Assembly: GCA_031763025.1 (NCBI GenBank)
Contig: JASSKH010000016.1
Span: 62,001-126,000, forward strand
DNA from: Macrocystis pyrifera
Lineage: Eukaryota; Sar; Phaeophyceae; Laminariales; Laminariaceae
Length of the DNA stretch: 64,000 bases
Reading direction: 5' to 3'
Numbering within the stretch: the first letter of the stretch is position 1; each line of letters begins with the position of its first letter. The notes beneath the pieces were generated by a model. That model worked only from the letters and a program-made list of their open reading frames with translations, ran no database searches and had not been told where the DNA came from. Made by a program: the position numbers and the translations under genes. This document shows positions 25,207 to 60,654 of this stretch, piece by piece.

Positions 25207-25232
25207 GTCCCCAATGATAGTCATTCTCATTG

Positions 25233-34084: not shown

Positions 34085-34096
34085 TAAGTTACGATT

Positions 34097-37556: not shown

Positions 37557-40185
37557 AAAAATACAAAGACCCGGGTAGGTTTCCCAGCCCCTAGGGGACT
37601 TTTCGGAAGTGGGACCCCATCCCCTGAGTTGCTTGCTGGGTGACATGACTTTGACCACCTAGAGCATTTGCCACGGAGCCCGGCCGGAGCCAACGCTTGC
37701 ACCGTACTGTTCACGCCGCCCCCCTGCGGGCCCCGCGGCAAGAAGCAAGAGAAAAGACCCGCGGCCCAAAGAGAAAAATGGACTTTTGCGGAAAAATAGG
37801 ATATTTGGTACGAAGTAATATCAGTTGCCTTCTTATCGAATCTTGTCATCTGTAGAGCTGGGAGTCTCTGTCGTTGTTCCATACGTTCATGCTGCCACAG
37901 CTACAAAGCTTCAGCTGCAGTGCGATTCAAGGGGCTGCTGCGTTTGGTCGAGAGTCCCACCCTCTTCCTGTGTGCACCCCTTTCTACTTCAGAAAATATT
38001 ATCTGACTACTGTGCCGCTGTGTTCTGCGTGTCGCGCGTGTGTGTGCCGTGTGTCGAGCGTGGAATTTCAAACCTTTTCTGACGGCAGCTCTTGGTTTTG
38101 TGCGCGAGAGGCCATCTTCGCCGAGAGTGCCACAACAAAAAAAATGCATCCATACATACGGACAAATATGATACACTGTTTGGTGAAATATTTAAACTAA
38201 TCCATAGACGCGATTCAGTCTATAGTAGCAGTTTCACACTACTTCTAAGTTATGTTCCGTCCACAAAAACGCAGGTGCAGTTCGAAAGGGGTCGTGGGCG
38301 GTACATGTGATATGATACATACAACTCATATTTCATAACATTGTACTATTGTATCATGTGTATCGTAAATAGTTATTGCACTACTTCCCGAGGCACGTCC
38401 CGCAAGGGAACCTTGCATGATCATACAGGGTTTTCATCACCACGAACTTGCTAGAGCAGCATCAGCTGCACCATCAGCGACACGTCCAACACGGCGAAAA
38501 GCGAGGGCAAAGACCAAATCGTGCCCCCTGGTTACCTAGGGCTCGCCCTCTCGGCCAGATATGAACATAGTGACGAAACTAAACTACCCTCTCGAACGAG
38601 AAAGCTCGGTAGAAATAGACGAGTTGTTGTAGTTCCGGAAGCAGCTCCTCAAACGCAAAAGGCGTCAACATGTGGCAGAATGTGTCTTCGTGCACCAGGT
38701 ACATAATGCGGGTGGCATTCAAAACTATGCGGCCGAGACAACTAAACACGAATTACGCGTGGTGTCGTGGCATGTACAGCCACACAAGTCAGTTTTACAC
38801 CCGCTCGAACAAACCGACTACCTCCGGGCGCGTTTGTCATATCGTTCCGCGAGGGGATACTGCTACCGGTGCACAGCAGTATGTATGCTGGTCTAGTCTG
38901 TGTCTATGGCGTGCCGCAACTATGGAAGCATACACAACAGCAAACTTCGCTCGAAGCGCTGTAGGCTAATGGGAATACACATCGAGTACTTCTTCAAGTG
39001 GCATATTCTGAGGAAACGTACACCAATGTTTGCTATTTTCTACATGGCCTTCAGATAACTGGTGGGCCCTCAAAAATATATTGGGGATGGCGCATCCTGA
39101 GGTACTGGGGTGGTGTACACTGAAGTACTGCCTCGGCAAGAGCCTACAGTAGGAACTACCTGATCCTGTGATGATCTTCGTTGTTGCCTTGCGTGATATA
39201 AAGTGATGAAGATGTATTTACCTGCGCACTATTCACGGCTTGATGGGCCGCGACTAACGTTAAGGCAGTACAGGGTGTGGTCCAGTGCACAAAACAAATG
39301 CAACAAAATTTTCCACTCTTTACGTCAGTACGGTGTGTGTTTCGAGTGAATTGTCACCTCTTCTTACGTTACAGTCAAATAATAAACCACGATCGACGGA
39401 CGTGAAAACGGCAAAACACTCACCTCCCAGTGAGTAGTTGAACGCCAGGTGAAGGATCCTCTGTGCCGGAAGCTTCGCCAGCTCCGCGGGGATGCCACCT
39501 GCAAGTAGTTTGCGATTCCAGAACAACAAGTGAAACGATGGGCACCATCAGACTGGGTAAGCGCACGCCACCATCTTCAACGGTGTTTTGCCTCTTCACC
39601 CCTCCACAGATTTCCCTCTATAATTGGTCACTCCCATGCAAAGTCGGATTGCCCCAGCGGCAACACGCTGCGCTAAATGGTACGAACGCTCATCTATCAC
39701 CACGGCCAACATCATCTGAATCACCGTCGCCTTCCACGTGAAAACTAATAATCTACTCACAAATTCAATTTTAGAATTAATAATATGTGGGGCACATTTC
39801 CAGTCCAACAAAGCATAGACCAATACACTGCTGTTGCCTTCCGAACGTTCTTCGACGACCATTAATATTGTAATCCGGAACATGACAACACCAACACTCA
39901 TCCTGCAGCGTTGGAACCTACACACATTTCTAGACCACAACTACTATAGCAAGGCAAATCACGAACGCATGTTTGCAGAGTCAGTATTGCAGATCACTCA
40001 AAAATTGACATTAAAACCATTATTAAATTGACTACCGGAATGCTTTACTATTGAAGCTGGGTCTCGGGGCAGGTGAAACGATCGGAAAAACCTAAAACCA
40101 TGTAGTCGCAGCCGAACAGTCTATCGCTTGGAACACGCGAAAGTTTTCTGGAGAGAGCAGCCAGCCTCAACCTGTCAGTCCGTCC
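37557..40185 (+). repeat. Duplicon copy 1, segment B
   Basis: Aligns with 57,428-60,064. The first part (to about 38,380) is about 90% identical by eye. From about 38,410 on the two copies are nearly identical, with very few differences. In copy 2, segment B follows segment A without a break; in copy 1 the 25.4-kb hAT nest separates them. Frames in 38,521-38,969 recur in copy 2, but the high identity makes that uninformative about coding. Confidence 0.9.
39424..39498 (-). CDS. Single LRR exon, 75 nt (type b, copy 1)
   Basis: On the minus strand an acceptor TTGCAG precedes the exon and GTGAGT follows it. The 25 codons give GGIPAELAKLP, then RILHLAFNYSLG, one LRR of the same plant-like type as the 72-nt exons. 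Introns are phase 1 on both sides. It lies in the tandemly repeated unit that also contains 59,317-59,391 and 60,407-60,481. The role is ligand or partner recognition within a larger LRR protein, by family knowledge. The rest of that protein is not identified here. Confidence 0.8.
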
Positions 40186-40497
40186 CCGGTTAATGAAACA
40201 GTGCCGCTGGGGGCGCGCCCAGAGGACCAGCATGTGGACCGTTTGGCAATGTTTCCCTTCAAGCCGCACCTGAACCTCATGCATGCTAGTTGCGAGAGGT
40301 TGGAGTTTCTGCTTATACAACATCTCTGGTAATGACGTCCCCGATGAATATGCGACAGTACTTGGTACACCGTTTTGCAGGCTGAACGCTACACCACCAA
40401 ACATTTCGCACTTGAAAGTGACAAGTCGGATCGGTGTGGCACCCCCTAGGAACTCGAGACTAATAGCCGGTATGAGACGCCATGAAATCATCGTCAA
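40048..40497 (-). CDS. Unrecognised frame between LRR exons
   Basis: 149 codons from ATG, with the open frame extending upstream to about 40,565. It includes LEFLGGATPIRLVTFKCEMF, VQVRLEGKHCQTVHMLVLW and a short Cys-containing C-terminus. It lies on the same strand as, and between, the LRR exons at 41,167-41,238 and 39,424-39,498, so it could be an exon of the same gene. Composition looks protein-like, but I recognise no domain. Only the last part (40,125-40,185) recurs in copy 2 (60,003-60,064), where the tandem unit boundary cuts it. Confidence 0.4.
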   Translation of the reverse strand: MTMISWRLIPAISLEFLGGATPIRLVTFKCEMFGGVAFSLQNGVPSTVAYSSGTSLPEMLYKQKLQPLATSMHEVQVRLEGKHCQTVHMLVLWARPQRHCFINRGRTDRLRLAALSRKLSRVPSDRLFGCDYMVLGFSDRFTCPETQLQ

Positions 40498-41160
40498 GAC
40501 AACCCGTTCGATCGTCAGATGACAATGGCGACCGTACCGAGCATATTTCGGCGTATATGACTAGTACTTGAGAGTCCGAACCCGCTCCCTACCTCTTTGT
40601 GGAATGTTTTTCACCAAGTAGGTAAAGGAAGACGACGCTATCCTCTTCTTTTAACGTCGAACGCATCAACGCAAATACGGCGTCAAGATACATACCTTGA
40701 ACGAGAGCTTCTCCATTACACCGCGCTCACCCTCGATCAGGTATCGTTGTGGAAATGAAGTGGTTCACCAAGATACGTACATATATTTCTGTATTCGTGC
40801 CAGCTTGCACGCTCTTTAAGACATGCCATGCCGATGACAGTCATTGGTACACCAAACAGAAATATGGCTTGGATGCAAGATACAGGCAGGATATTACTTG
40901 CGCAGCGATACTACAGTAATGCTCTGTTGGAACAAGAGACACCTACATATTCCTAGCACAAGAGGGTGATAACTTTCCGTCTGTTCCACGCAAGATAAAC
41001 CAAAAGGATATACCTTGGTAGTAGGATCACATAGAAAAAGGGGTGCCACTAAGACTCGGCGTTAACAGTGCAAACGTAGAAAGCACGATGGACCAAACGC
41101 ACAGCCGCGGGGCATTGTGTATTTCTTACCTAATGCCAGAACGCAATCAAGGACGAGAAA
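40186..41160. other. Unique spacer between duplicon copies
   Basis: Apart from the frame at 40,048-40,497 and its upstream extension, no gene, RNA or repeat is recognised here. It separates the end of segment B (copy 1) from the start of segment A (copy 2). Confidence 0.5.
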
Positions 41161-41166
41161 GCTCAC

Positions 41167-41238
41167 CTTTAAGGCCAAGATTTTCCAGACGAATCTCCTC
41201 CAACGCCTTCATCTCCCCCAGCTCGGGCGGTATGATGC
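41167..41238 (-). CDS. Single LRR exon, 72 nt (type a, copy 2)
   Basis: Minus-strand acceptor TTAG and donor GTGAGC bound exactly 72 nt. The peptide has IIPPELGEM, ALEEIRL and NLGLKG, one plant-type LRR. Both introns are phase 1. It differs from the copy at 699-770 mostly in the variable solvent-exposed positions after IIPPELGE, while the scaffold leucines stay. That pattern would fit a recognition module, but two copies are too few to prove selection. Confidence 0.8.
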
Positions 41239-42387
41239 CTAACAAAGCAGAGCGGGGGGGCGAGAAACAACATAAGGTATTGAGATCATGCACACGAAAA
41301 ATCAGCCATGCAAAAGAGATGCTACAATCCTAACAGCGGTTGCACCAGTAGAGAGCGACGATAGCAGGGGTTCTACAAGCCAAGCCTTGCCAATGGGGAG
41401 CGCGACGGCCGGCAAGTGAGAGCCACCTCATATGCAGCCTTTGGCTACCGTAGGAGGGGTGCACGGATGTGGGGTGCACGGGAGGCGAAAGGCTAACAAC
41501 GCAACAATAATGGGGCAACGGATAGGAAACTCATGATAATTTAGAAATGGGGCATGGAGAAAACAGGTGAAGGTAAGGGGGGCATGCTTAGCAGATTGGC
41601 AGAAGCACAACAATAGGTGCACGTCCGTGGTCACCTGGGTGGATAGCGTAACGTTGTGTACCGCAATTTCAACACCATACGCACCGCGACCATATTGCCG
41701 TCAGCATATTGCCCAGTAGAGACAGAGCTACGACATCCCATTTACCACACACCGGGGCGGAACGATCACCCGGTGGGGGGTTGGGAGCTGAGGGACCAAC
41801 AGAAAGAAGGGCAGGGGGTTCGTACGCGTACCAAAGTAGTTTATCCTGCCCACACGAAGTTTAGATCTGACAGCGTGATGTGCTGTGTGGGTGGGAAGGT
41901 ATTCACTGGAGGGTTGTGCCCGTGAGGGGGGGTGAGGGTCGGGGAGGGCGTCTCAATCCTTGCAGCATAATCAAGGGGCGGGGGCGCATCGGAGGGGAAA
42001 TGGTATGACGATCGTTGGGAACGTCATTAGCACCACGTGGCATGCAGGGGGGCGGTGTGGAAGCGATTTTTTTTCGGGGCCAAAACGAGCTTTGGACCGT
42101 CTATGATGGACAAAGGGGCAAAGGATGCGTGTATGGGACGTTCGGCAAATAAACCATTGACGTAACCCTTCCTGAAACCGCTCGTATACGGCAGGTTGAT
42201 TCATCAAACGCAGTCCTAGCTAATGGTGTGCCAAGGTGGCAATACGTTCGGGTTGCCAACACGAGCTGATAGTTGATTACCGAACGCCACCTCGAGGGCA
42301 CGACTACGCAGTGGTCGGATCGTGGTGGTTACCTGCCAATATGTGTAGCCCGTAAGCGACGATCCGGTGTATATTCATGTGCATACA

Positions 42388-44265
42388 TCTACACCACGAA
42401 TGCTCACGCAATGTAAGATGAGCACACGCGCGTCACACGTGGCGCATCTCCCTCTACATCTCCGCGCGGTTTAGTTTTCACGGGTGGTTGACCGCTTGTG
42501 AACGCATCTGCCCCATATAACCTAGCTATTATTTTCAACCCCAACACCCGCACCAACTCCAAATGAAACATGGACACACACAAAGAAAATGACACTGGTG
42601 TGGCGAACATATTGGGTATTTGTTGCCCGCTGTACACATAATCCCCGCTTCGCCAACAACTGGTATTAATAGAACGCAATTTTGTACAGGTAACATAGAA
42701 TGTACCGTTGAAGAAGGACGTATACCTGAAACGTGGATGTTATCGTGGCGTTTACGGGTACACGACGTAGGTAGGCACTTAGGTCAATACTGCACAATTC
42801 GAGTATTGTGTTGCATAATTGGTATCGTCCACCAACGTATTGTCGTCATGTACTGTTTTTTGTCATATTTCCAGGGGCGTCTGTGTCATGTGACGAATAT
42901 TAAAGTACAACACACATTATCACGGGGGACCATAGTAAGTAGGACCTACGGTACACACAAAAAAACTATATATTTACACATTTTTACCAGCAATATTTGG
43001 TCCTATTTCCTATGGCCCCCCGCTATAGTAATTTTCGCTACTGCTGACGAGCTGAGAGGTGGTGGGCATGCGCCACGTTATTTTGTTACGGCGGTTTCGG
43101 AGGTGCTGGGGTGATTTTTCCGTTTGGTTCTGGCACTGCCGAGGTGGTTGTGCGCGTTTGAACAATATCTACATGTAGATGCTGTGCCTACCTGTGCAAC
43201 TTCTCCCTCTAAACGCGTCAACCAAAAATACGCTTCACCAGCGCACGTCCATCGGCGTCTTGAGAGCGGCCAAATGCATGACAAAACAGGGGCGTGGTTC
43301 GGCTGCGTACACAAAGGCACTACTTCACTAGCTCCACGTTTAGCATGCGACCTCAAGGTCGTGTGAGCTGTCAAAAGTTCCACGAAGCTCCTTATTGTTC
43401 CGGGTAGACGACGTGTTGTGGCCTGCGGCGGCTCAGCACGGTGGCAAGTGATACCGGGGAGGTCGTCGAAAATGATGGACTGTTTTACGGCGGGGCGGCC
43501 TATATATGGAAGCAGACGCCGTCTAAATCGGTGAAAACGGGATAGGGAACGGGCGTTGTGGTTGGGAGCGCGTCCGTGCTGGTACCGCTGTCAAGGGAAG
43601 CAAAATGGAATAGGTTTCAAAGTTACTTTTGAGGTAGTTAGCGGAATCTACGCTACCACTGCCCCGATCGGCAATGTTTCGGTTGGTTTCTTGTTGCTTT
43701 GCTTTGTGAGTTTGTTCCTCCTCGCGGGGGCACGTCAGCAATATTGAAACCTCATTCATCCGTCGGCGAAACGAGTGGGAACGACATATCACAGCAGGTC
43801 GTGTGGCTAGTTTCCTATGACTCCACCATCAGATTGAAAAACGATCAAACACGTCTCTAGTTCTAATATTTTTTCAAGATTCAAACGGCCTTGTTCATGT
43901 CGATTGGTTTTTCCTATTTTTTCAACGCTCTTCTTCCCTCCGGGGTTCTGTCTCTGGATGCTGGCATGTTCGACACGAAACTCCTTTCACGTGTTCTTCT
44001 CGTGCTCGTTTCGGGATATATTCCGTCCAAGTTCGTGATGAACTTGGTTACAAATGCTGTTGACAGTAAATGTTATTACTTCTGTTTTTGGTGCGCTTCT
44101 TTGCGTATCGATGTAACGAGATTTCACTTGCTTACCCGCGTTCAAGTATTTATTTACCACCCCTCATCTGCGACATTTGTGTATAGTTGTTTCTCTTGGC
44201 TATTTTCTTTTCCCACTCTCCTTCGCTTCATTCGGTATTTTTATTACGGGTATACGGTCTCCTCG
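42388..44265. other. Block present only in duplicon copy 2 (1.9 kb)
   Basis: Copy 1 goes directly from about 1,903 to 1,911 at this place, so about 1.88 kb is an insertion here or a deletion there. The edges share only CATAC/TATAC-like bases, and I see no terminal inverted repeats. Frames at 42,620-43,114 (+) and 43,891-44,331 (+, hydrophobic, T-rich) are open but show no family signature. A 20-bp motif near 42,455-42,475 (CTCCGCGCGGTTTAGT) recurs at 47,443-47,458. Confidence 0.5.
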
Positions 44266-44789
44266 TTTTCGGTTGCAACTACAACAGTAAACGTATGTGT
44301 CTTGTACGTATGTCTAAACGTTGTAGACTGATTTCAGATGAGGTTTCTTGTGTAAGGTGCACGACTTGGTTAAGCTACAACACGTATCTCATCGTTTGGT
44401 TTCTCCCCAGGTATCTTTCCACTCCAGAGTTATTGAGCCTGTCCCGTGACCACGGATTCGATGAAGAGGATGAGCTCATGCGAGAAAAACAACAACAATT
44501 TACGGAAAACCGTCAAGCTAAAACAGCTTGCGCAACCGCTTCAAATCTACCGACGGCGTTCTGCTGATAGACCTTCTCACCTTCACGACCGCGTAGGGAC
44601 AGTAGTCGACCGGACTGGCAACTATAACATGTCCCAGGTTGAGCATAGAGTAAAGGGATGCACTGGCTTTCTGGGGTGCCCCACGATTACATGACGGAAC
44701 AGTTTGCTACCACCACTACTACTGCGTCTGTATTTTCAAGTACTTGTTGCCACAACTACGAATTTTTTCATCACGAAACCAACAAAGAG

Positions 44790-45100
44790 CAATCATGCTA
44801 AGGCTGGGACCTGGAGGCTCCATCCAGTACGATTCACGTATAGGCTACTTCCGCACCCAGTCCATCTGGTTCTGAACCCCTCCTGCAGATGGGCGGGTCT
44901 CGCGGGAGGTTGCCCTGATGAAGACAAGACTGCTTGTACGTACGCGATCAGGGCTCTAAACAATGAGTACGCTTCAGGTAATGTTTCAGGGGCAGTCAGT
45001 TGCTGGGTGTCAGGCGTATACAATGATGAGCGCGGAATAAATATTGAATTTGGTTTCGGCGTACCTTCGTTTCCTTCTTGCGTATCAAGTTTGCCTCATG
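44790..45100. other. Block of about 300 bp present only in copy 2
   Basis: Copy 1 has contiguous sequence at about 2,465-2,470. Inside, the frame WAGLAGGCPDEDKTACTYAI (about 44,893-44,976) lies between a TGCAG acceptor-like site and a CAG/GTAATG donor-like site, so it might be an exon. No family is recognised. Confidence 0.35.
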
Positions 45101-46774
45101 CTCGGACTATTCGCTTTCAACAATCTATATCTTTGCTCTTTTCTCACTCTCCCCATTCGTTCTTTATTTCTCCCTCTGTGTCGGCAGTAGTACTTACTGG
45201 CAGTGCATAGTTGACCAGGCCACATTCCTAAATTATGCATTGTTTCACTTTCACAACCGCGTATCTCGACAGGGGTAGGGGGGCTGGGGTTGCTGTCGGA
45301 AACAACGCGGAAATCGCCCGATTCCATTCAGAGACGGATTCGGATCATATCCGGACAACTATGCGGACCTCGGCGACATGTTGGGGCGAGATTGAACAAC
45401 GGGGTACGTGAATTGGGGATCTTCAACAGGCTCGAAAACATCCTGAAGGGGATTCGACACTCATGGGTTATCTCTAGATAAAAGGTGGTAGGTGTCTTCC
45501 AAGACTATTGGCTCGAGCGGGGCCTCGACACACAAGAGGGTGCCTCTCCAAGGTCTCCGGGTGTCGGCGTTTCCAAGGCGCATCACGCAACGACCACAAA
45601 CCACCGCAGGGCCGACCAAACACTCTTTACAGAAAAATATAGTTGACCGCCTTTGTGCACCACGCCCGCAAACGTCACTCACTGCTCTGGACCAGCTGCC
45701 CGAACAGAAATCTAGTATCAACCCGACCGACTTGATCGGGGGGCAGGGGACAAGCGAAACCATGGTGAAAAGCCCCTCATAAGAGCCTTTCGGTAGGAGG
45801 AGCCGTCGCCTGCCCTTGAGCATGACCATCGAACTACCTCTGAGTCATCCCCGGGTCGACCGTTGGTGGCGGATGCTGTGTAGTGTTGATTTCAGGGACG
45901 CCAGCCGGACTTGGTTTCCACCATCCCCTTAATTCTTCAGACGGTTTACGTTTATGGAGTGCGATTATTTCCCTTCGATCCCTTCAATTTTCTGACAACG
46001 TTTTTGAAACGTTCTCATTTTTCGGGTCTGGCAAGGAAAAGGTGCTTCGGTGTTTTCTTACCACCTTTGGGGCTTGGTGATAATATAGCGACAAACAGTA
46101 CAGGCGAGGTTTTATCGACGGTCCTCTCTTATTTGGTCTCATCACGTCAACAACTAACGCAAAATGCATGGGTGTACATCGCCCGCAGTGCAACTCCTTG
46201 CGTTCAAGTTGGGGCACTCCTCCCACAATACCCTACCCTAGCGGCTAGGGTTGGTTCGTATGGCCACATAGCTGAAATCGCCCCTGTTTTCACGCATCTG
46301 TTCCATATTTACTCCAATCAAGTTAAACAGGGAAAGAATAAACCATGTGCGTCAAGGCTCAACGAGGTTCAGTACGGACTACAGACGTTTATGCAACGTA
46401 CGGAAGTTTCCGAACACCTGTTGTTGAACTGGAGCAGCGTGGCCTGAGGTCGGGTGTTTGTCAAAACGACAAACCTAGAATCTGATACACACGACACACA
46501 CAGCGTGTTTGAAAACACTTTAGGGCTAGGGCCAAGGACAGGTTTGCCACAACAGTGACCAAACGTCGCGAAACCGAGCACAGTCCGTTATGTGGTGCGT
46601 GGGCGGAGTGCTGTGCTGGAAACGTCTGTGTTTCACAGTAGCCAGAAAAGGTTGGATCGCTCTGTTGGTGCGTGAAGCGTTTGGTTATACCTTGTCCACA
46701 AGCCCAAAGCAGCACGCACAGCTTTAAGTGGTGCCGAAGAATCGTTCACGATGCCTACAGCTACTATCAAATAG

Positions 46775-47666
46775 ATATGTCGTAGAACAGCGAATAAAGC
46801 ACATCCCGGTCATGAATGTTGACATGAAAAAATATTATGTCCTGGTGTGTTGTTGTGGGGGGAGGGGGATGCTATCTAACTCATCCCCGGTGACAAAACA
46901 CCATGCACGAGAGCCCCGCAGCTAGGGGGTGAGACAGCGAGGGGGTGTGCTAACGGCAGTATTGGATGATGAGGAGAGTTAACAGACCCCGGCCAGATGC
47001 AGGGTGTCCGGCGATTCGGCTGCTGCCGACGGGGCCTCAGGCCCATTGGCTGACGCATTGGGCGTTGCTGCAAAAGCTGCGGGTGCTTCGCCGGTACCGG
47101 TACCCGTACCGGTATCAGTAGTCCGGGCTTCGGACACGGCGGACGTAGCAGACGTGATAACGTTAGTGCCAGTACCGGTAAGCGCGCTAGCCCCAGCCAA
47201 AGACCACGTGATCGTCGCCCGAGGTGCGGTCGCAGCAGCTACAGGTGGGGTCGAAGCCGCAGACTCGTTCGGCCCGGCGCAGCAGTTGCCTCCATGCTGG
47301 GCTCCATACCGGTGCGAGGTGATTGTCAATTGTGAATGGTATCCATCCACCAGTTGGTGTCAAAAATTGAGGAGTTTGACACTGTCTTCGGGTGTACATA
47401 CGTAGGGGTGGGGGGGTGTCATCTATCACAGACCCATCTACCTCTCCGCGCGGTTTAGTGGTCATAAAGAGAACGAGAAGTTGCAAATGTCTCTGCCCTA
47501 TGACTGACGATATATCATGGAAACAGTGAAACACCAACAGTGCCCGAAAATAGAACTGTGCATTCTGAATGCCGGAAATGTCAGCCACATAGCACGGTGT
47601 TAGGCAAAACGCACCAATTGCATGATACAACGCCGTTTGCGTCCATTTAAGAATCAACACAAACTA
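46775..47666. other. Block of about 0.9 kb present only in copy 2
   Basis: Copy 1 has only about 50 bp of partly similar sequence here (7,020-7,070). The block includes the exon candidate at 47,003-47,177 and a CCGGTACCGGTACC-rich patch similar in style to the GTACCG minisatellites at 60.7 and 61.8 kb. Confidence 0.5.
47003..47177 (+). CDS. Candidate Ala/Val/Pro-rich exon
   Basis: Bounded by GATGCAG (acceptor) and GTAAGC (donor). The frame gives an Ala-rich peptide with a PVPVPVPVS run. The reverse strand is also open, as often happens in GC-rich simple sequence. A spliced exon is possible but weakly supported. Confidence 0.25.
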
Positions 47667-47695
47667 CAGGAGGATCAATAGGCAAATATCTGGGA

Positions 47696-50204: not shown

Positions 50205-51240
50205 CTGCATGATCTGAAGGATCTGTAAGATCTGCAGGATTTGTATAATGTACATGTATCACCTTTTCTTTCGCGGTGAGATCTGCTTGGTCTTTATGAT
50301 TGCACTTGCGTGCCGAGTGGGATGATCTGAATGCCATTTGTGCATGATGTGGAGGATCTATCTGCATGACCTGAAGGATCATTTGTCTACACACTCCAAC
50401 TAGTTTGCGTTCCGTATCATTTGCACTTGTGTGTCAGGTGGGATCTGGTTGATCTCAATGACATGCACATGTTTAGCCTGAAGGAGATCTGTGTGGTTAC
50501 AATTTTCATAGAAGTGTACCTGAGTAGAATCTGTGTCATCTGTACAATCAATACATTTCGACCGGGATGGGATCTGTCCGATCTGCCTGATCTGTACATC
50601 TTGAGGGAGATACGAAGGGTCTGTACGATCTGCATGATCTTAACATGTTTATCGATACGTGTCATTGATCTGCAGAATGTGTATAATCTGCAGGATCCGT
50701 ATGATCTACCTGAGTGGAATCTGCATGATCTGTATGATCTGTCCACCGGGATAGGGTATGTACGATCTGCATGATATGCACATTCGTTTTCGTGGGTCTG
50801 CATGATCCGTATCATCTGCAGGATCAGTATGATCTGCGGCATTTCTCTATATATCTGGAGGATCATCAGTAAAATCTGGATACTTCAATCTTGTTTACAG
50901 CATGTTTAGCCGGGATGGGGTCTGTATGAGGTAGATATTTCACACGTGTGTACCTGAGTGGGCACTTGATCTGTGTGGCCTGTACCTATGTGTAATCTGC
51001 AGGATCTGTATGATCTACCTGAGTGGAATCTGTGTGATCTGTATGATCTGTTCATCTTGATCGGGATAGGGTCTGTACGATCAAAATGATCTGCACATAT
51101 TTAACTCGCCGAGTTTGCATGACCTGCAGGATCTGCACTATTTAGCAGGTGTGTACCTGAGTGGGATCTTGGTCTGTGTGACCTGTACATCTTCACCGGG
51201 TGGGATCTGCATCATCTGCATGAACTGCACATATTTCGTC
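50205..51240 (+). repeat. Degenerate nonamer satellite GATCTGYAN, copy 2
   Basis: The counterpart of 9,355-10,970, shorter by several hundred base pairs. It has the same 9-bp spacing and the same larger motifs (GCATGTTTAGCCGGGATGGG near 50,900). The 117-codon frame at 50,421-50,774 is produced by the repeat. Confidence 0.88.
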
Positions 51241-51639
51241 GGGAAGATCCAAAAAATCAATCAAGACGAATAAAGGTCGAAAAGGAGTTGATGGACAACC
51301 CTATACACGCGCAACGCAATAAACACCCGGTACAAAATATACTGCTACACGAAGTAGGAAGTAGCCAGGGTGTGATAAAAACATCAGCCGCACGGACACA
51401 AACAAGCGAAGAGTAGCAGCAAAAGGAAAGCAACCTGCGCCAGCTACAACAGCGGTAGCTATACTCAGCAGCAGCGTCATCAGCACGAGCACCAAGATAA
51501 GCCACCGTGTGACACGGCTAAAAATATTCTTTCGGTAGCAGAGAGAAAAGCCTCAATAGTACTAGCAGCAGTAGCAGCTACACCGTGATTGTGCGCAGTA
51601 GAGCCTGGTATCAGTATAGGGCTACCCTATATATACCCC

Positions 51640-51905
51640 CTATACGATATGATATTTCCATAGTGCTTAGTCATGTTTTTTTTCGCCGGAACGTGCGATA
51701 TATATATCATATCGTATTACATCGCTATATATAGGGGTTTTCACCACGATGTGACTAAAAGGTGATATGATATTTGGTATATGATATATGCGTCCGCTAT
51801 GAAGGGATATATCGGCCAATATAAGGTGATATAAGATGATATATCGGCCTATATGAGGTGAAATACGTGATATAGCTATCCGATATGTGACATAATATGA
51901 CCACT
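51640..51905. repeat. AT-rich palindromic subterminal region of the TAGAG element
   Basis: Many copies of GATATATCGGCC-, GATATGATATAT- and TATATATA-like motifs on both strands. A similar region is at the other end (56,595-56,720). Confidence 0.7.
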
Positions 51906-52089
51906 TGCTGTCTTGACGATATATCTTGCATATTTCGGGCGTACATTTTGGGCGGAACATACGTGCAGTATACAGTATATACCTGGTACGTATGTTCGAG
52001 TACGAGTACGAAGCGTGACGCACACACAAGGGGACGTACCAGGGGTCTGTGCCCGCCGCTGTCTTGTTTTCGTGCGGGTTTGATCCGCG

Positions 52090-52368
52090 ATGAGCGAGTT
52101 GATCGCGCCATCGCCTGCGGCCACAAACGAGCCACAGCTACAGCAGTCGCCTTCGACATCGTCAAGCGCCACCACACAACATCTAAATGCAATATATCCT
52201 CGCGGAGAAGGTGTTGTTGTATCATCATTCATGCATTTGGTGAACCGGGTTGTACGTAGCGGCACAGATCGCCAAGTACCGAGCCAGTGCTTTACCATCA
52301 GTGTGGCACAGGCCCCAACCACGAGCAAGTACCTATGTGACACGGTGGTGATGTACATATATAGATAG
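52090..52368 (+). CDS. Ser/Thr/Gln-rich frame in the TAGAG element
   Basis: 92 codons starting MSELIAPSPAATNEPQLQQS. It contains NAIYPRGEGVVVSSFMHLV and ends in repeat sequence. The start resembles a real N-terminal exon, and a GT donor occurs near its end (CAA/GTACCT, about 52,330). No domain is recognised. Confidence 0.3.
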   Translation: MSELIAPSPAATNEPQLQQSPSTSSSATTQHLNAIYPRGEGVVVSSFMHLVNRVVRSGTDRQVPSQCFTISVAQAPTTSKYLCDTVVMYIYR

Positions 52369-53399
52369 ATACCTGGTAGGTGATAATAGCACACGAAAGC
52401 ACGATACATCGGGCAGATATGAAGTGACATATCACAATATACAAGGTACATGATATATAGATACAACTATAATTACGATTTGTGAGGTCGTTGTCACTTG
52501 CTAGCTCTTGGCAGACAGACCGACTGATAGACAGCTCTTCGCAAACAGCCCTTCTTCTTTGAAACAGCCGAACAGCCAAACAGCCAAACAACCTTTCTTC
52601 TTTCTTCGCAAACTGCAACCAATACACAGCTCTTCGCACAACGCCTAGAAGAGGCGTCTCGCCTTCGACGAACGGCATCTAGATGCAGCTGTAGGCGGCC
52701 AAGCTGCTTGCTGCTGTCGGTGGCGAACCTGCTGGTGCTGCAACCCCCGCCTCTCCCTTCTCCACGCCCCCTAAGCTCACCTCCCCCTCGTCGAGAGGCG
52801 CGTGCTCCTCGCCCTCTGGCAAGTGAGCGGCAACGACAAAGACCGACCTGGTGCCGACTGTTGTTTGCGACCGGTGCACGGACCAGCACTTACTTACTTG
52901 CCCAAGAACTCCGCGCCTAGTGGCAAAAACGTGGCCTTCGCCACCTGCGAGGATCTCATGTGCGATGGTGGCAGGATCATCCTGTATTGGGCAACCAACT
53001 GCGAGTAATGTGCTCGCCCGATCAAGGAAGGGACTGTCTCGTACGCCCTCGAGCCTGCTGACAGTGGTGAGTGTCTTGGGTCTATTGTTGAATGCTGTCT
53101 GTTGCCAGTACGTTTTTTTGGGGTTTTCAATTGCCTTTTTGCATACAAACCTACCTCAAAGCGTTTATTATTATTATTTGGACTCATCCATGCTCGTTCT
53201 TTCCCCTTCGTGCGTTGCGTCGGCTCCTCTTACACAGTGCACGCGAACGCGCATATGCACAACTGTTTGCGGGACGTGACCGAAGGATTCAGCTGTCGCC
53301 GTCACCGCTGCACCGAACGATGTGAGTGCTGCTGCTACTGTGGTGCATTTTCGGTGCGCACGATTTCTGTGTGTACATGTTTTGGTGACCCTACGTACC

Positions 53400-53428
53400 C
53401 CCTTTGCTCGTTTTCGGCTGCTGCTGCA

Positions 53429-53460
<32 letters not shown>

Positions 53461-54432
53461 CAGCGCCACGCCATGAGTGCTGCTACTGTGCACCTGCTGC
53501 TCCTGTGCACTTGCTGCTGCTGTGCACTTGCTGCTGCTGTAGTGCTGCTGCGTTGTTGCCGTGCGTCATGCTGGAAGTGTACATATTTTCGGATCGTCAA
53601 TAAAAGTGTACTATTAATAGGGTACATCATGCTTTTTCTCTTCCATATTTTCATATCGTTGCTATGCTGCTGCTGCTGCTGCTGCTGCCAACGCTGCTGC
53701 TGCCAACGCTGCGGCGATTCACTGCAGCTGCTGCTGCTGCTAATGCTGTAGCTGCTTCTGCTGCTAATGCTGCCGCAATATCCACTGAATGTATGTACTC
53801 GGGTTATTGTATTTATTGGTCGTTTTTGTACCCAAATGGTTCTTTTGATACGTGAAAAATATTTTTGTCGTTTTGCTCCTGCATTTTGCGTACGTACTCC
53901 CTTTTCTCGTTTTTGGCTTGATTTTTTTTCCTATCGTTGCTATGCTGCTGCTTGCTGCTGCTGTGGTGCTGCTGCGTTGTTGCTGTACATCATGCTGCAC
54001 TTGTGTGTGTACATATTTCTGTATCGTCACTGAATTTCCGTAGGTTTTGCGATCGCGGCATACATAGTTTTCTTCTTCCTTATTTTCATATCGTTGTTAT
54101 GTTGCTGCTGCCAACGCGGATTATTGTTTTTGTTGGCCGTTTTTGTACCCAAATGTTTTATTTTATACGTAAAAAAAATATTTTGGTCGTTTTGCTCCTG
54201 CATTTTGCGAACTACTTTTTCTCGTATTTTAGCTTGGTTCTTTTCGTATTGTTGCTATGCTGCTGCTGCGTTGTTGCCGTACAGCATGCGGGGGTGGGTC
54301 TATCTATAGTGAGGTACCAAAAATACTTTTCGGACGGACTCGGGGTACATACTTTTTTTCTTCCTTTCTTCCTTCTATTCATATCGTTGCTATGCTGCTG
54401 CTGCTGCTGCCAACGCTGTGGCGATCCGTTGC

Positions 54433-54484
<52 letters not shown>

Positions 54485-55540
54485 AGTGGTGCCGCAATAT
54501 TCACTGAATGTTCGTATGTACTCGGATAATTGTGTTTCTTGGTGGTTTTGTCGTTTTGTGGCGCTGCTGCGTTGTTCCCGTACACATCATGCTGGACATG
54601 ATTTGTGTGCCTGTTACACTTGTGCGTGTGTACATATTTCTGTATCGTCAACGATTTGTTTTGTGGTGTTGCTGCGTTGTTGCCGTACATCATGCTGGAC
54701 GTGATTCGTGTGTGTATTACTACACTCGTGTGTGTGTACATATTTCTGTATCGTCAATAATTACCGTACGTTTTGCGATTGCGGCCGACCAGGGTACGTA
54801 GTTTTTTTCTTCCTCCTTTTCATATCGTTGCTATGCTGCTGCTGCTGCAGCCAACGTTGCGGCGATCCGTTGCTGCTGCTGCTGCTGCTGCTGCTAATGC
54901 TAATGCTAATAATAATGCTGCCGCAATATTCACTGGATGTTCGCATGTACTCGGATTATTGTTTTTCTTGATCGTTTTTGTACCTAAATGGTCGTTTGGG
55001 TACCTGGAAAAATATATTTTGGTCATTTTGCTGCTGCATTTTGCGTACGTACTGCCTTTTTCTCGTTTTGGGCTTCGTTCTTTCCATATAGGTGCTACGC
55101 TGCTGTGGTGCTGCTGCTGCGTTGTACATGATGCTGGTCATTTGTGTGTACATATTTTTGTTTCGCCAATGAAATTCCGTAGTTTTTGCGGTCGCGGCAT
55201 ACCAGGGTACATACTTTGTTCCTTCTTTTTTATCATATCTTTGCTATGCCGCTACTGCTGCCAACGCTGCGGCGATCCATTGTTGCTTCTGCTGCTGCTA
55301 ATGTTGCTAATGCTGCCGCAACCACTGCTCGAAGCCGTTGCGGCTGCTGCTGCTGCTGCTGCTGATACTGCTAATGCTGGCTCAATATCCACTGATTGTT
55401 CTTATGTATTCGGATTACTGTTTTTCTTGGTCGTTTTTTGCACCCCAATGGTCGTTTTGGTACGTTCAAAAAATATTTTGGCCGTTTTCCTGCTGCGTTT
55501 TACGCATGTACTTGCTGCTTCTGCTGCTGCTGCTGCCGTC
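53400..55540. repeat. CTG-rich higher-order tandem repeat
   Basis: About five units of 0.3-0.45 kb. Each holds a CTGCTGCTG run, a GCCAACGCTGCGGCGATC core, a TTCACTGAATGT-CTCGGATTATTG segment, TTTTTGTACC-AATGGTCG and a GTGTGTACATATTTCTGTATCGTC segment. The core occurs near 53,705, 54,107, 54,406, 54,850 and 55,262. The frames of up to 257 codons over it are poly-Leu/Ala/Cys translations of CTG repeats. Confidence 0.85.
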
Positions 55541-55649
55541 GTATAGCAAGCGGTTACGTACTGATGTTGTGCCGCTGTAGAGCAGTACAAATAATTAACT
55601 CCTGCCCCCCCCCCCCCCCCCCCCCCCCGTCCCCCCCCCTCCCCCGCCA

Positions 55650-56099
55650 TTTGCTGCACGCCACTCCCGCCCCGCGCACCCTGTTTACTTCGACCAGGTC
55701 GGTGGCAAGTGCTACAACTGCCGCCTGACGGACTCCACCATCAAAGACGGAGACATCATCATCAAGCGCAAGAAGACTCCCTTCCATTTCGCCTGCTCCA
55801 GGGCTTCGCGGAATTCCGAAGCAGTACGCCAAAAAGGATTGTCTCCATCCAGGACGAATGAGAGGCAACAAATTGTTCCCACATTTCCCAAAATCACGAC
55901 TATTTCTCCCTACACATACCCAACGGGTTCAACAGCGGACAGATCCACATTCTGGGCCCCCCGCCTCGTTACTACAGCAGCCTGGAAGACTACTCTACAG
56001 GCAGCCGGAAGACCTATTTACATACCATGTCTCATCCAAACTCCTATGCTGGCTAAATCGAAATCGCGGCCGCCCAGCAACTATACAACATTTCCATAA
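55650..56099 (+). CDS. Possible zinc-finger exon (PARP-like spacing) in the TAGAG element
   Basis: The frame begins in a C-rich tract and reads to a TAA at 56,097. It contains GGKCYNCRLTDSTIKDGDII, then KRKKTPFHFACSRA. The ligand pattern is CX2C-X21-HX2C (Cys codons at 55,710 and 55,719, His at 55,785, Cys at 55,794), and the IKDGD turn resembles PARP-type zinc fingers, which use CX2C...HX2C. PARP-type fingers bind nicked DNA; here the match is by eye only. The C-terminal two thirds is Ser/Thr/Pro-rich with no domain. The start is unknown, as an upstream exon or the C-rich tract could be an intron end. Confidence 0.45.
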   Translation, partial: FAARHSRPAHPVYFDQVGGKCYNCRLTDSTIKDGDIIIKRKKTPFHFACSRASRNSEAVRQKGLSPSRTNERQQIVPTFPKITTISPYTYPTGSTADRSTFWAPRLVTTAAWKTTLQAAGRPIYIPCLIQTPMLAKSKSRPPSNYTTFP

Positions 56100-56330
56100 C
56101 CGTTGTCGTTGCCGGCACTGCTGCTGCTTTCCCCTCTGTCCCGAACCTTCCTTGAAACAACAGCCTGTATGTTGTATATCATCCACATGCCATGCACTAC
56201 TCCACTCTCTCCCCGCACTGATGAAATATGTTATCCTTATTATTAGACGAATGTCATTCTTACTCTTGCGTCACCCGATCTTACGTTTCACATTACATTC
56301 ACAAATAAACGCGATTATTGCATCCTTCAC

Positions 56331-56561
56331 CGTTTCTTACACAAATACATTTAGTTTGGTTGGCTTTGGGTATTGCCCCAATTGCAATATAACTGGCAAT
56401 ATAACTGCAATTGGCGTCATAACATTTAGTTTGGTTGGCTTTGGGCTATTACCCCAATTGCAATATAACTGCAATTGGCGTCAAAGCCCAAAGCCAACCA
56501 AAACTGCAATTGGCGTCAATACCCAAAGCCAACCAAACTAGATGTATTTGTACAAGAAACG
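56331..56561. repeat. Palindromic MITE-like element inside the TAGAG hAT
   Basis: The left arm from 56,331 (CGTTTCTT, ACAAATACAT, TAGTTTGGTTGGCTTTGGGT) is matched as an inverted complement by the right arm ending at 56,561. The arms are about 45 bp with few mismatches. The centre has repeats of CAATTGCAATATAACTG and of GCAATTGGCGTCA. No target duplication could be fixed. Confidence 0.75.
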
Positions 56562-56589
56562 ACGGAATACCCACTCCGAAGGAAAGCCT

Positions 56590-56820
56590 TGTAACATTAT
56601 ATATATATGATATTGCACAACATATATGATATATCACACGATATATGACATGGTATCATCATATAACCCTGCATATATCACATCGCATAGCGATATATCG
56701 AAAAATGCCCGTGATATGGACATGCATGACTAAGAAATATCAACTTTTATGACTTAAGTAATCTTCTTTGGGGGGGGTAAATATATAGGTATCATATACC
56801 CCCCCCCCCGATTTTTACGT
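56590..56820. repeat. Right AT-rich region and C/G tracts of the TAGAG element
   Basis: TATATATGATAT-type palindromes (56,595-56,720) followed by a G8 run and a C13 run just inside the right end. This mirrors the left subterminal region. Confidence 0.65.
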
Positions 56821-57427
56821 GATACCAGGCTCTAGCGCGCAGCAGTGTGCAGCAGCAGCGGCAGCAACAACAGGAGCAGCAAGATAAGCAACCGCGTGGC
56901 ACGGGCAAAAATAGAATAAGGGTAGCAGCAGGAAAATCAACCTGTCCCAACAATAGTAGCAGCTATACCGCCGTGATTGTGTGTAGCAGTAGCGGCAGCA
57001 ACACTCAGCAGCACTCGAGCAACACTCGATTCGAGCAGCACTTGTGCGTGCGCCTGTTGTTGCTGTTCTTGTACTGCTGGGTACTGCTCGATCGAGCAGC
57101 ACTCGAGCGCGCGAGCATGAGTGGGTTTCCAAGCCTATATTGCACCGCTAAAAAAAAACACAGGACCACGACCACTCCATTGCTCAATCGCAACGAGCAC
57201 GAGACGAACACGAGCACGACGTGGCCAACCAGCCACGGGCACATGAGCACTCAGCAGCAGAGCAGCAGCACCCAGCGACACTCGAGCAACATTCGACTCC
57301 AGTAGCACTCGTACGACTTCTTTTGCTGTTGTTATACTGCTGCAGCTCGAGCAGCACGAGCTCGAGCAGCACTGCTGCGTGCTGTTGCAGTTGCAGCGAG
57401 AAGAGAGAAGAACAAAATCTTTGCAGC

Positions 57428-60064
57428 TAAAAAATACGAAGATCCGGGTAGGTTTCCACGTCTCTAGATGGCTTTTCGGAAGTGGGACCCCGTCCCCTCA
57501 GTTGCTTGCTGGGTCACGTGACTTTGACCACCTAGAGCATGTGCCACGGAGCCCGGCCGGAGCCAACGCTTGCACCGTACTGTCCACGCCGCCCCCCTGC
57601 GGGCCTCGCAGCAGGAAGCACGAGAAAAGACCCGCGGCCAAACGAGAAATGTAAAGTATTCCGGAAAAAAAGGTCCATTTGGTATAAAGTAATATCAGTT
57701 ACCTTCTTGTCGAACCTTGCCATCTGTAGAGCTGGGAGTCTCTGTCGTTATTTCATACGTTCATGCTGCCACAGCTACAAAGCTTCAGCTGCAGTGCCAT
57801 TCAACGGGCTGCTGCGTTTGGTCGTGCGTCCCACCCTCTTCTTGTGTGCACCCCTTTCTACTTCAGTAAATATTATCCCACTACTGTACCGCTGTGTTCT
57901 GCGTGTCGCGCGTGTGTGTGCCGTGTGTCGAGCGTGGAGTTTCAAACCGTTTTTGTCGGCAGGTCTTGGTTTTGTGCGCGAGAGGCCATCTTCGCCGAGA
58001 GTGCCACAACAAAAAGAATGCATCAACATACATACGGACAAATATGACACACTGTTTGGTGAAATATTTAAACAAACCCATAGACGCGATTCAGTCTAAG
58101 GTAGCAGTCTCACCCTATTTCCAAGCATGTTTTGTCCACAAAAGCGCAGGTGCAGTTCGAAAGGGCTCGTGGGCGATACATGTGATATGATACATACAGC
58201 ACATATTTCATAACATTGTACTATTGTATCATGTGTACCGTTTTTTAAATAGTTACCAGGTATTGCACCACTTCCCGCGGCACGTCCCGCAGGGGAACCT
58301 TGCATGATCATACAGGGTTTTCATCACCACGAACTTGCTAGAGCAGCATCAGCTGCACCATCAGCGACACGTCCAACACGGCGAAAAGCGAGGGCAAAGA
58401 CCAAATCGTGCCCCCTGGTTACCTAGGGCTCGCCCTCTCGGCCAGATATGAACATAGTGACGAAACTAAACTACCCTCTCGAACGAGAAAGCTCGGTAGA
58501 AATAGACGAGTTGTTGTACTGTAGTTCCGGAACCAGCTCCTCAAACGCAAAAGGCGTCAACATGTGGCAGAATGTGTCTTCGTGCACCAGGTACATAATG
58601 CGGGTGGCATTCAAAACTATGCGGCCGAGACAACTAAACACGAATTACGCGTGGTGTCGTGGCATGTACAGTCACACAAGTCAGTTTTTTACACCCGCTC
58701 GAACAAACCGACTACCTCCGGGCGCGTTTGTCATATCGTTCCGCGAGGGGATACTGCTACCGGTGCACAGCAGTATGTATGCTGGTCTGGTCTGTGTCTA
58801 TGGCGTGCCGCAACTATGGAAGCATACACAACAGCAAACTTCGCTCGAAGCGCTGTAGGCAAATGGGAATACACATCGAGTACTTCTTCAAGTGGCATAT
58901 TCTGAGGAAACGTACACCAATGTTTGCTATTTTCTACATGGCCTTCAGATAACTGGTGGGCCCTCAAAAATATATTGGGGATGGCGCATCCTGAGGTACT
59001 GGGGTGGTGTACACTGAAGTACTGCCTCGGCAAGAGCCTACAGTAGGAACTACCTGATCTTGTGATGATCTTCGTTGTTGCCTTGCTTGATATAAAGTGA
59101 TGAAGATGTATTTACCTGCGCACTATTCACGGCTTGATGGGCCGCGACTAACGTAAGGCAGTACAGGGTGTGGTCCAGTGCACAAAACAAATGCAACAAA
59201 ATTTCCCACTCTTTACGTCAGTACGGTGTGTGTTTCGAGTGAATTGTCACCTCTTCTTACGTTACAGTCAAATAATAAACCACGATCGACGGACGTGAAA
59301 ACGGCAAAACACTCACCTCCCAGTGAGTAGTTGAACGCCAGGTGAAGGACCCTCAGTGCCGGAAGCTTCGCCAGCTCCGCGGGGATGCCACCTGCAAGTA
59401 GTTTGCGACTCCAGAACAACAAGTGAAACGACGGGCAGCATCAGACTGGGTAAGCGCACGCTACCATCTTGAACAGTGTTGCCTCTTCACCCCCTCCACA
59501 GATTCCCCTCTATAATTGGTCACTCCCATGCAAAGTCGGATTGCCTCAGCGGCAACACACTGCGCTAAATGGTACGAACGCTCATCTATCACCACGGCCA
59601 ACATCATCTGAATCACCGTCGCCTTCCACGTGAAAACTTATAATCTACTCACAAATTCAATTTTAGAATTAATAATATGTGGGGCACATTTCCAGTCCAA
59701 CAAAGCATAGACCAATACACCGCTGTTGCCTTCCGAACGTTCTTCGACGACCATTAATATTGTAATCCGGAACATGACAACACCAACACTCATCCTGCAG
59801 CGTTGGAACCTACACACATTTCTAGACCACAACTACTATAGCAAGGCAAATCACGAACGCATGTTTGCAGAGTCAGTATTGCAGATCACTCAAAAATTGA
59901 CATTAAAACCATTATTAAATTGACTACCGGAATGCTTTACTATTGAAGCTGGGTCTCGGGGCAGGGGAAACGATCGGAAAAACCTAAAACCATGTAGTCG
60001 CAGCCGAACAGTCTATCGCTTGGAACACGCGAAAGTTTTCTGCAGAGAGCAGCCAGCCTCAACC
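57428..60064 (+). repeat. Duplicon copy 2, segment B
   Basis: The counterpart of 37,557-40,185. It joins segment A directly at about 57,428, giving the empty site of the 25.4-kb nest. From about 58,300 onward it is almost identical to copy 1. Confidence 0.9.
59317..59391 (-). CDS. Single LRR exon, 75 nt (type b, copy 2, unit 1)
   Basis: Same splice sites as 39,424-39,498 (TTGCAG acceptor, GTGAGT donor, minus strand, phase 1-1). The peptide is GGIPAELAKLP, then LRVLHLAFNYSLG. It lies in unit 1 of a tandem pair whose unit length is about 1.09 kb. Confidence 0.8.
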
Positions 60065-60654
60065 TTGGGGATGGCGCATCCTGAGGTACTGGGGTGGTGT
60101 ACACTGAAGTACTGCCTCGTCAAACGCCTACAGTAGGAACTACCTGACCCTGTGATGATCTTCGTTGTTGCCTTGCTTGATATAAAGTGATGAAGATGTA
60201 TTTACCTGCGCACTATTCACGGCTTGATGGGCCGCGACTAACGTAAGGCAGTACAGGGTGTGGTCCAGTGCACAAAACAAATACAACAAAATTTCCCACT
60301 CTTTCCGTCAGTACGATGTGTGTTTCGAGTGAATTGTCACCTCTTCTTACGTTACAGACAAATAATAAACCACGATCGACGGACGTGAAAACGGCAAAAC
60401 ACTCACCTCCCAGTGAGTTGTTGTTCTCCAGGTGAAGGATCCTCAGTGCCGGAAGCTTCGCCAGCTCCGCGGGGATGCCACCTGCAAGTAGTTTGCGATT
60501 CCAGAACAAGTGAAACGATGGGCACCATCAGACTGGGTAAGCGCACGCCACCATCTTCAACGGTGTTTTGCCTCTTCACCCCTCCACAGATTTCCCTCTA
60601 TAATTGGTTACTCCCATGCAAAGTCGGATTGCCTCAGCGGCAACACGCTGCGCG
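60065..60654 (+). repeat. Second, partial tandem unit carrying an LRR exon
   Basis: Repeats 58,975-59,570 from GGGGATGGCGCATCCTGAGG onward. It is cut at 60,654/60,655, where GTACCG-type minisatellite sequence begins. The unit carries exactly one LRR exon. Confidence 0.88.
60407..60481 (-). CDS. Single LRR exon, 75 nt (type b, copy 2, unit 2)
   Basis: Minus strand, TTGCAG acceptor and GTGAGT donor, phase 1-1. The peptide is GGIPAELAKLP, then LRILHLENNNSLG. Against unit 1, the differences fall in the HLxxNxSL segment (LAFNYS against LENNNS), which lies on the variable side of an LRR. Confidence 0.8.

Follow-up and report, generated by a model that had tools for sequence, protein, structure and literature searches.

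Lamprey VLR genes owe their binding diversity to a large number of LRR cassettes, which are copied into an incomplete gene. The LRR copies of the giant kelp are, unlike these cassettes, ordinary exons with splice sites. In brown-algal ROCO genes, each 72-nt exon encodes one LRR, its codons occupying nucleotides 3-71 in a frame termed phase 2, and sites 18 and 19 (numbered as here) are among the positively selected LRR positions, according to the available text of PMC11378527, which also regards sets of LRR-only exons as a reservoir for shuffling and covers four species other than Macrocystis. The kelp exons resemble those described in that text in their exon frame (phase 2 there being phase 1 here), in the order of LRRs followed by ROC and in the variable concave-face residues, sites 18 and 19 among them, but differ in that ~11.7-kb units are present about a hundredfold, with an extra 75-nt exon type, near-identical introns, diversity packed into 12 nt and islands of variable length. 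LRR exons of Tetrahymena are likewise arranged in tandem with one exact length and one intron phase, their expansion being attributed to unequal crossing-over, but are 90 bp long and in phase 2, with no 12-nt island described in the accessible part of PMC6564038, whereas the kelp exons are 72 or 75 nt long and in phase 1. The het-d/het-e repeats of Podospora, as far as the excerpted PMC12222747 goes, share near identity, concerted evolution and a few hypervariable interaction-surface codons, but are WD40 repeats of an NLR, whereas kelp LRR exons lie kilobases of intron apart. The kelp exons have the high internal conservation of such repeats, being near-identical with few hypervariable surface codons, and are LRRs by Pfam, not WD40-type repeats of an NLR.

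Here, we describe giant-kelp arrays with more than 100 near-identical receptor exons that vary almost only in 12 nt of the predicted binding face, a restriction suggestive of a system that generates new receptor specificities. ROCO genes with one-LRR exons have already been described in the available text of PMC11378527; the array scale and the DNA-level hypervariability of the kelp exons were not found in the published literature.

The window, a stretch of 64,000 nt from Macrocystis pyrifera, carries five one-LRR exons, all on the minus strand. These are a 72-nt exon of the GEVK variant (699-770), a 75-nt exon in which Gln replaces a conserved Leu (39,424-39,498), a 72-nt exon of the array type GEMKALE (41,167-41,238) and two further 75-nt exons (59,317-59,391 and 60,407-60,481), the last lying further 5' than any other LRR exon found in C196:1-306,000. 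The initial annotation had predicted these exons together with consensus splice sites and symmetric phase 1, and this description holds in full: coordinates and lengths are correct in all five, each has AG upstream and GT downstream, and each consists of 2 nt, full codons and 1 nt. Joined in silico along the minus strand, the five exons encode an uninterrupted 123-residue peptide, in which Pfam recognises LRR_1 (E 1.1e-9), LRR_4 and LRR_8, all above the curated cut-offs. Homologues of a joined LRR query are generic LRR proteins at 32-51% (among the matches listed, 120 of 344), PDB searches returned plant-type LRRs, and an Rfam scan of the window gave nothing at the gathering threshold. The exon copies were also said to differ at the variable face of the repeat, which is borne out. 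All differing codons are nonsynonymous: 4/4 between the exons at 59,317 and 60,407, 2/2 between those at 39,424 and 59,317, and 10/10 between those at 699 and 41,167. On the minus strand, the variable place of the 72-nt family (codons 18-23) reads GGNDLE at 700-717 and ENLGLK at 41,168-41,185, and the 12-nt hypervariable island of the 75-nt exons reads A-F-N-Y at 39,434-39,445 and 59,327-59,338 and E-N-N-N at 60,417-60,428.

The repeat of about 1.09 kb at 58,975-60,654, originally read as a tandem unit, is real (58,975-59,565 and 60,065-60,653 are 95% identical) but is not a fresh local tandem duplication. The flanks of the exon at 60,407 differ from those of units on other contigs at 6-7 of 498 columns and from those of the neighbouring copy at 17, which rules out a simple local origin of the pair. 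Further minus-strand segments are repeated as well. The 75-nt exon segment at 37,557-40,173 is 95% identical to a second copy at 57,430-60,065, and its part 37,557-39,796 has 93% identity to an array unit on C187; the stretch 38,901-46,263, containing a pair of 72-nt and 75-nt exons, is 97% identical to a C187 array unit. The 590-nt exon segment at 60,065-60,654, at whose 5' edge array homology stops, has 132 candidate genomic places, the best 40 of 132 being scored, its own copy included. The stretch 671-12,154, which includes a 72-nt exon, and 41,135-57,441 stem from an old duplication, their pieces being about 75-92% identical. The earlier proposal that the window may display the step that makes new exons is supported in that symmetric single-LRR exons lie in repeated units, but the units that are copied are mostly ~11.7-kb array units elsewhere in the genome. 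Mobile elements surround the locus, and any reverse transcriptase encountered in the ten frames scanned was of the LTR-retrotransposon type.

The suggested search for further copies, allowing up to 3 mismatches, placed the 75-nt exon pattern at 113 genomic sites, a related third exon type included, and the 72-nt pattern at 117, while backward-read control patterns of both types gave 0 genome-wide. Most of these places sit in ~11.7-kb array units, and the five window exons are outlying members of this large array system. For the 75-nt pattern, 100 of the 113 places were listed, comprising 92 with no more than 1 mismatch, of which 81 were read, and 8 of the third type; for the 72-nt pattern, 100 of 117 were listed and 23 copies read. 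The contig pairs C113/C1 and C103/C153 are redundant, and the C113 and C103 copies were dropped, leaving 78 non-redundant copies of the 75-nt exon. Flank comparisons retained 22 of 23 copies, the C113 copy alone being dropped, and omit the length-variable stretch at alignment columns 350-370. The codon table of the 72-nt exon is based on 16 of 23 copies, with 5 length-broken and 2 redundant ones omitted. The arrays lie mostly on small contigs.

Downstream of the LRR exons, 12 of the 23 exon-bearing contigs carry one-LRR exons of a fourth type, followed by an exon combining an LRR cap with the start of ROC (NPWAEPP..NSIKVVLVGQEGA), which includes what we take to be a P-loop motif; of ROC, only this start was found. 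The fourth family, located 3' of the other LRR exons and 5' of the ROC exon, has 47 places on these 12 contigs, and a match to the GEVK variant lies ~1.45-1.49 kb 5' of it on C1, C8 and C58, as does the exon at 699-770. The cap/P-loop frame is open at no fewer than 10 of the 12 loci, whose common 3' flank is alike at 93-97% (over 4 kb at 10 loci, in two pieces at C214 and over 2.7 kb at C153). Its peptide is matched at 63% by a Laminaria digitata homologue with the reading GQEGAGKTSL, and the Ectocarpus LRR protein P0045 has a similar cap. From this arrangement, present at the window locus and eleven others, it follows that the kelp exons belong to brown-algal ROCO genes, which upholds one of the two gene families first suggested; NB-ARC and TPR domains, which mark the other, were not met in the sequences searched. 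Pfam did not call ROC on the short cap/P-loop exon, and the COR model PF16095 has 0 matches genome-wide, the available text of PMC11378527 reporting COR in just 18 of 111 brown-algal ROCOs. On 11 of the 23 contigs the ROC exon was not found; on 9 of these the exons reach within ~15 kb of the 3'-side contig end, which may account for its absence, whereas C52 and C200 lack this excuse. At the window locus the P-loop Gly is replaced by Arg and one fourth-family exon is frameshifted; judged by its sequence the locus looks decayed, and this copy may therefore be dead.

The apparent decay of this locus, the mobile elements around it and the concentration of arrays on small contigs would fit a macrosatellite or segmental duplication in which the exons are functionless passengers and island variation a mutational accident. 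We consider this improbable, since nearly all 81 copies of the 75-nt exon that were read retain their splice sites and, outside the island, an intact frame, and since the ROC exon lies 3' at 12 loci with its largely open frame.

The island of the 75-nt exon comprises 12 nt, codons 18-21, on the concave face of the LRR. Among the 78 non-redundant copies there are 60 distinct islands, while the scaffold varies little, with an exactly shared 53-nt 5' part in 51/78 and an exactly shared 10-nt 3' part in 72/78. Island diversity is ~0.32-0.37 against ~0.02 in the flanking intron, and of 100,000 random sets of 12 columns none reached it (22 copies). The possibility that exon copies decay like the surrounding intron is thus contradicted by the island, which is roughly 15 times as variable, but not clearly by the scaffold, which is nearly intron-like: in the 22 copies the exon outside the island varies just a little less (0.0110) than the intron does (0.0184), a point in favour of passenger exons, and scaffold variability is 0.020-0.021 in 51 full-length copies, mostly read without flanks. 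Against passenger exons, codon 20 keeps the LRR Asn (46/51 copies), and the 72-nt exon varies at the same structural place in different flanking sequence. Of the published sites 14, 16, 18 and 19, the last two vary strongly and the first two weakly, with site 21 varying in addition.

A Ka/Ks-type comparison, as originally proposed, agrees with selection at codons 18 (pN/pS 0.412/0.077, with 0 silent changes in 383 same-residue pairs) and 19 (0.380/0.102), but not over the whole island, where pN is 0.372 and pS 0.401 (codons 1-17: 0.025 and 0.015), the high silent diversity coming from codons 20 and 21. With silent diversity this high over the whole island, point mutations under amino-acid selection are not a sufficient explanation.

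We consider it likely that the arrays belong to a kelp ROCO family in which symmetric one-LRR exons lie in homogenised arrays and concave-face codons are kept diverse by diversifying selection. Each LRR of the receptor would be one symmetric exon, spliced to its neighbours and followed by the ROC GTPase domain, and the ~11.7-kb units, which pair a 72-nt exon with one of 75 nt, would expand, contract and be homogenised, introns included, via unequal crossing-over or gene conversion. Despite this homogenisation, 3-4 concave-face codons per LRR would remain very different, presumably through selection for new binding specificities in a putative immune role, with variants arising via recombination between units and block exchange inside the island. 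Owing to the symmetric phase, any exon copy could be added, lost or skipped without a frame shift.

The raised silent diversity of the island would also fit a DNA-level process, either local hypermutation or break-and-repair with small indels, that is directed at the island, whether in the germ line or the soma, with selection only filtering its products. Four different islands among five units with identical 498-column flanks, and neighbouring C187 units that match over 886 nt apart from a 2-nt repeat and the island, where they differ by 2 substitutions and 1 deletion, speak for such targeting, which we nevertheless hold to be unlikely; the lack of silent change at codon 18 speaks against it. 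In the 75-nt exon, most variable codons resemble NNG, NNC or NNY, which would suggest an adenine-directed (DGR-like) form, but this is ruled out, since the third-position A of codon 23 in the 72-nt exon is kept in 16/16 copies used.

Targeting would further explain the many island lengths. Copies of the 75-nt family are 72, 74, 75, 76, 77 or 78 nt long, nearly all length changes fall within the island (judged by eye), and 19 of 78 islands are out of frame, with a length of 74 nt in 12 of the 19. These frame-broken islands reflect targeted mutation or consensus error; they would not be favoured under selection and count against our preferred reading. We see about an even chance of an assembly artefact, in which long-read consensus mixes near-identical units into chimeric islands with indels and falsely homogenised flanks. 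In this regard, broken islands are absent from 13 copies on the four large contigs C129, C196, C200 and C214 and make up 19/68 elsewhere, and where flanks were read they occur only in units with a near-identical sister (4/4 broken against 6/18 intact, Fisher p 0.029, 22 copies), as expected from consensus mixing and contrary to targeting. The predominance of 74-nt copies among the broken ones, the shortening of all five length-broken 72-nt exons and the redundant contigs agree with such an error, as does a 1-nt deletion in a Podospora repeat traced to homopolymer misassembly in the excerpted PMC12222747. Consensus mixing could not, however, have produced the island diversity, since the large contigs also carry differing in-frame islands and codon 20 keeps its Asn. 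It would account for the frameshifts and perhaps the identical flanks, but not for the whole pattern.

The diversifying-selection reading remains the one we favour, and a bolder reading, to which we give little credence, is that a process is aimed at the 12-nt stretch of ROCO LRR exons, where point changes, codon-block swaps and small indels would accumulate. With similarly little confidence, it would yield tens of binding-face variants, perhaps also somatically, while scaffold and introns are kept alike. If true, a eukaryote that is not an animal would possess a mechanism for diversifying its receptors. Since the description of ROCO exon shuffling it has been proposed that brown algae may generate receptor diversity by more than ordinary gene evolution. 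With the variable stretch known to the nucleotide, the kelp arrays make this proposal directly testable and could tell apart islands that change during one lifetime, from generation to generation or on evolutionary timescales only.

The five minus-strand one-LRR exons lie exactly where the initial annotation placed them (window 699-770 and 41,167-41,238, 72 nt; 39,424-39,498, 59,317-59,391 and 60,407-60,481, 75 nt), each preceded by AG and followed by GT, and their symmetric phase holds, each starting with two nucleotides of a split codon and ending with one. Joined in minus-strand order, they give an open frame over 123 residues whose product is recognised as LRRs by Pfam and has plant LRR receptor kinases as best matches in a search of solved structures. 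On C196, the contig holding the window (at 62,001-126,000), no extra exon of the 72-nt or 75-nt type was found within positions 1-306,000 by profile scan (motif scan over 1-256,000 with a 2-kb gap). Just beyond the window, at C196 ~59.3-61.3 kb, the profile scan found another one-LRR exon type in three copies ~1 kb apart.

The genome searched comprises 537,376,219 bases in 223 contigs, C196 accounting for 13,669,674 bases. Further exon copies, for which the initial annotation had proposed a search, are plentiful: a 35-nt pattern of the 75-nt exon (<=3 mismatches) occurs at 113 places and its 36-nt counterpart for the 72-nt exon at 117, while backward-read control patterns of both types occur at none. 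The 590 nt surrounding the 60,407 exon have 132 candidate places, the best 40 of which, when scored, were 95-98% identical, self excepted. The contig distribution, drawn from 100 listed of each of the 113 and 117 places, covers 23 contigs, namely the large C129, C196, C200 and C214 and the smaller C1, C7, C8, C11, C24, C52, C58, C73, C79, C82, C101, C103, C113, C149, C153, C160, C161, C169 and C187. Two contigs are redundant, C113 with C1 and C103 with the end of C153, at near-constant offsets and with the same islands of variable sequence (described below). On array contigs the spacing between successive same-type exons is often about 11.7 kb; the single unit read, on C187, carries one exon per type, separated by 1.7 kb. 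Among the matches listed, a third exon type (CAGGCGGCATACCC...) accounts for eight places (C1, C7, C11, C52, C73, C82, C103); a 72-nt exon follows on its 3' side at about 6.8-6.9 kb in six of them and at about 0.5 kb in two.

The 75-nt exon differs between copies almost exclusively in a 12-nt island (codons 18-21), predicted to lie on the concave, binding face of the LRR. Among 23 copies with flanks, mean pairwise diversity is 0.367 in the island, 0.0125 and 0.000 in the exon 5' and 3' of it, and 0.021 and 0.023 in the introns on either side. Without a redundant copy (22 copies) the island value is 0.323, the top 12-column window elsewhere reaches 0.149, and none of 100,000 random 12-column sets attained the island value. 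The 81 copies read are mostly 75 nt long (54), the others being 74 (12), 72 (7), 76 (4), 77 (3) or 78 nt (1). The 78 non-redundant copies hold 60 distinct islands, with one exact 53-nt 5' part common to 51 of the copies and one exact 10-nt 3' part to 72. Of the non-redundant copies, 51 are 75 nt long; in these the remainder of the exon has diversities of 0.021 and 0.020, 46 have Asn at codon 20, codons 18, 19 and 21 show 9, 8 and 9 residues, and the left and right island halves combine widely (34 amino-acid combinations). In the 72-nt exon, which sits in unlike flanks, the variable place corresponds structurally, taking in codons 18, 19, 20, 21 and 23 (based on 16 of the 23 copies read).

The substitution patterns of codons 18 and 19 suggest selection (pN/pS 0.412/0.077 and 0.380/0.102); codon 20 is constrained in residue and free at silent sites (0.086/0.928), and codon 21 is even (0.651/0.645). 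Over the whole island pN is 0.372 and pS 0.401 (codons 1-17: 0.025 and 0.015), and since pS is as high as pN, amino-acid selection acting on simple point substitutions cannot be the sole explanation. Something further must contribute: exchange of blocks, ancient alleles preserved within a very small linked stretch, or a locally higher mutation rate. Five units, four on C187 and one on C24, have flanks identical over 498 columns and four different islands, and two adjacent C187 units differ across 886 nt only in the island and at a 2-nt repeat. The reading frame is broken in the islands of 19 of the 78 non-redundant copies. Targeted mutation could have produced these, but none of the 13 copies on C129, C196, C200 and C214 is broken, and a sister unit with <=1 flank difference exists for all four broken and only 6 of 18 intact copies (22 with flanks; p 0.029). 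Consensus mixing of reads from near-identical units would give the same pattern; either process may lie behind the broken islands.

The exon-bearing loci are conserved in order. A fourth one-LRR exon type has 47 places spread over 12 contigs, 11 of which carry it as tandems of about 1.03 kb; it sits 3' of the other LRR exon types, and on C153 a second LRR exon set follows farther on, at positions 2-16 kb close to the contig end. The GEVK variant of the 72-nt exon, as at window 699, precedes a fourth-type exon by 1.45-1.49 kb on C1, C8, C58 and C196. Beyond the fourth-type exons a 4-kb stretch is shared at 93-97% by these 12 contigs, with 2.7 kb present on C153 and two pieces on C214; within this conserved flank, at C196:58,446-59,159 outside the window, lies a dispersed element of roughly 700 nt, relatives of which (80-84%) occur across many contigs. 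Downstream of the final fourth-type exon located, at a distance of about 2 to 4 kb, stands an exon that closes the LRR and opens a ROC domain (NPWAEPP...NSIKVVLVGQEGA). All 12 contigs carry it, C8 and C214 as two fragments, and C199 has a distant relative (41%). Its only homologue found in the protein collection, among just five candidate proteins with shared words, is a Laminaria digitata partial protein, 63% identical, with the P-loop GQEGAGKTSL; generic LRR matches included an Ectocarpus protein of like plan (LRRs, then NPWKEPP..NRLKVVL). On this basis, we assign the kelp loci to the ROCO family. The ROC part of this short exon gave no Pfam score and no COR domain was found in the kelp genome; COR is also undetected in most brown-algal ROCOs, according to PMC11378527. 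No ROC exon was found on 11 of the 23 exon-bearing contigs; on nine of these the LRR exons reach within about 15 kb of the 3'-side contig end, so it could not be seen there, yet on C52 and C200 they are not near that end.

The window's own locus has probably decayed; its P-loop Gly is replaced by Arg and the fourth-type exon at C196 59.4 kb is frameshifted. The 1.09-kb tandem at window 58,975-60,654, with one 75-nt exon per copy, is genuine as sequence, but does not show a fresh local duplication, as the outer copy resembles units on other contigs more closely than it does the adjacent copy. Two clusters of GGTAC-rich repeats of 41-nt spacing (60,612-60,891 and 61,821-62,067) start where the outermost exon unit has its 5' edge and array homology stops. 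The window also contains Copia-type retrotransposon reading frames (13,755-16,422; Pfam PF14223 gag match in 13,755-14,927), a 517-nt stretch repeated 23 kb apart at 98% identity (13,090-13,605 and 36,142-36,658), and CTG-rich tandem repeats (53,400-55,550) embedded among longer repeats spaced some 400 nt from one another. A large imperfect inverted repeat (17,493-34,549; arms some 8 kb, pieces about 78-83% alike, centre near 25.3 kb) separates the LRR exon at 699 from the one at 39,424.

One-LRR exons, selection at sites 18 and 19 and LRR-only reservoirs have already been published for brown-algal ROCOs (PMC11378527). Tetrahymena has LRR exon arrays (PMC6564038) and Podospora near-identical repeats with hypervariable codons (PMC12222747). 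In the portions available, the open literature searched gave no account of such array scale or of a 12-nt island in kelp, and the main text of the giant kelp genome paper mentions neither LRR nor leucine-rich (PMC10498591). The most likely mechanism unites recombining arrays, selected face diversity and symmetric exons: exon-bearing array units would be copied and homogenised by recombination, exchange between units would supply face diversity, selection for new specificities would keep it, and phase-symmetric exons would permit units to be gained, lost or skipped. Purely by analogy with the ROCO literature, these kelp loci may have an immune function.
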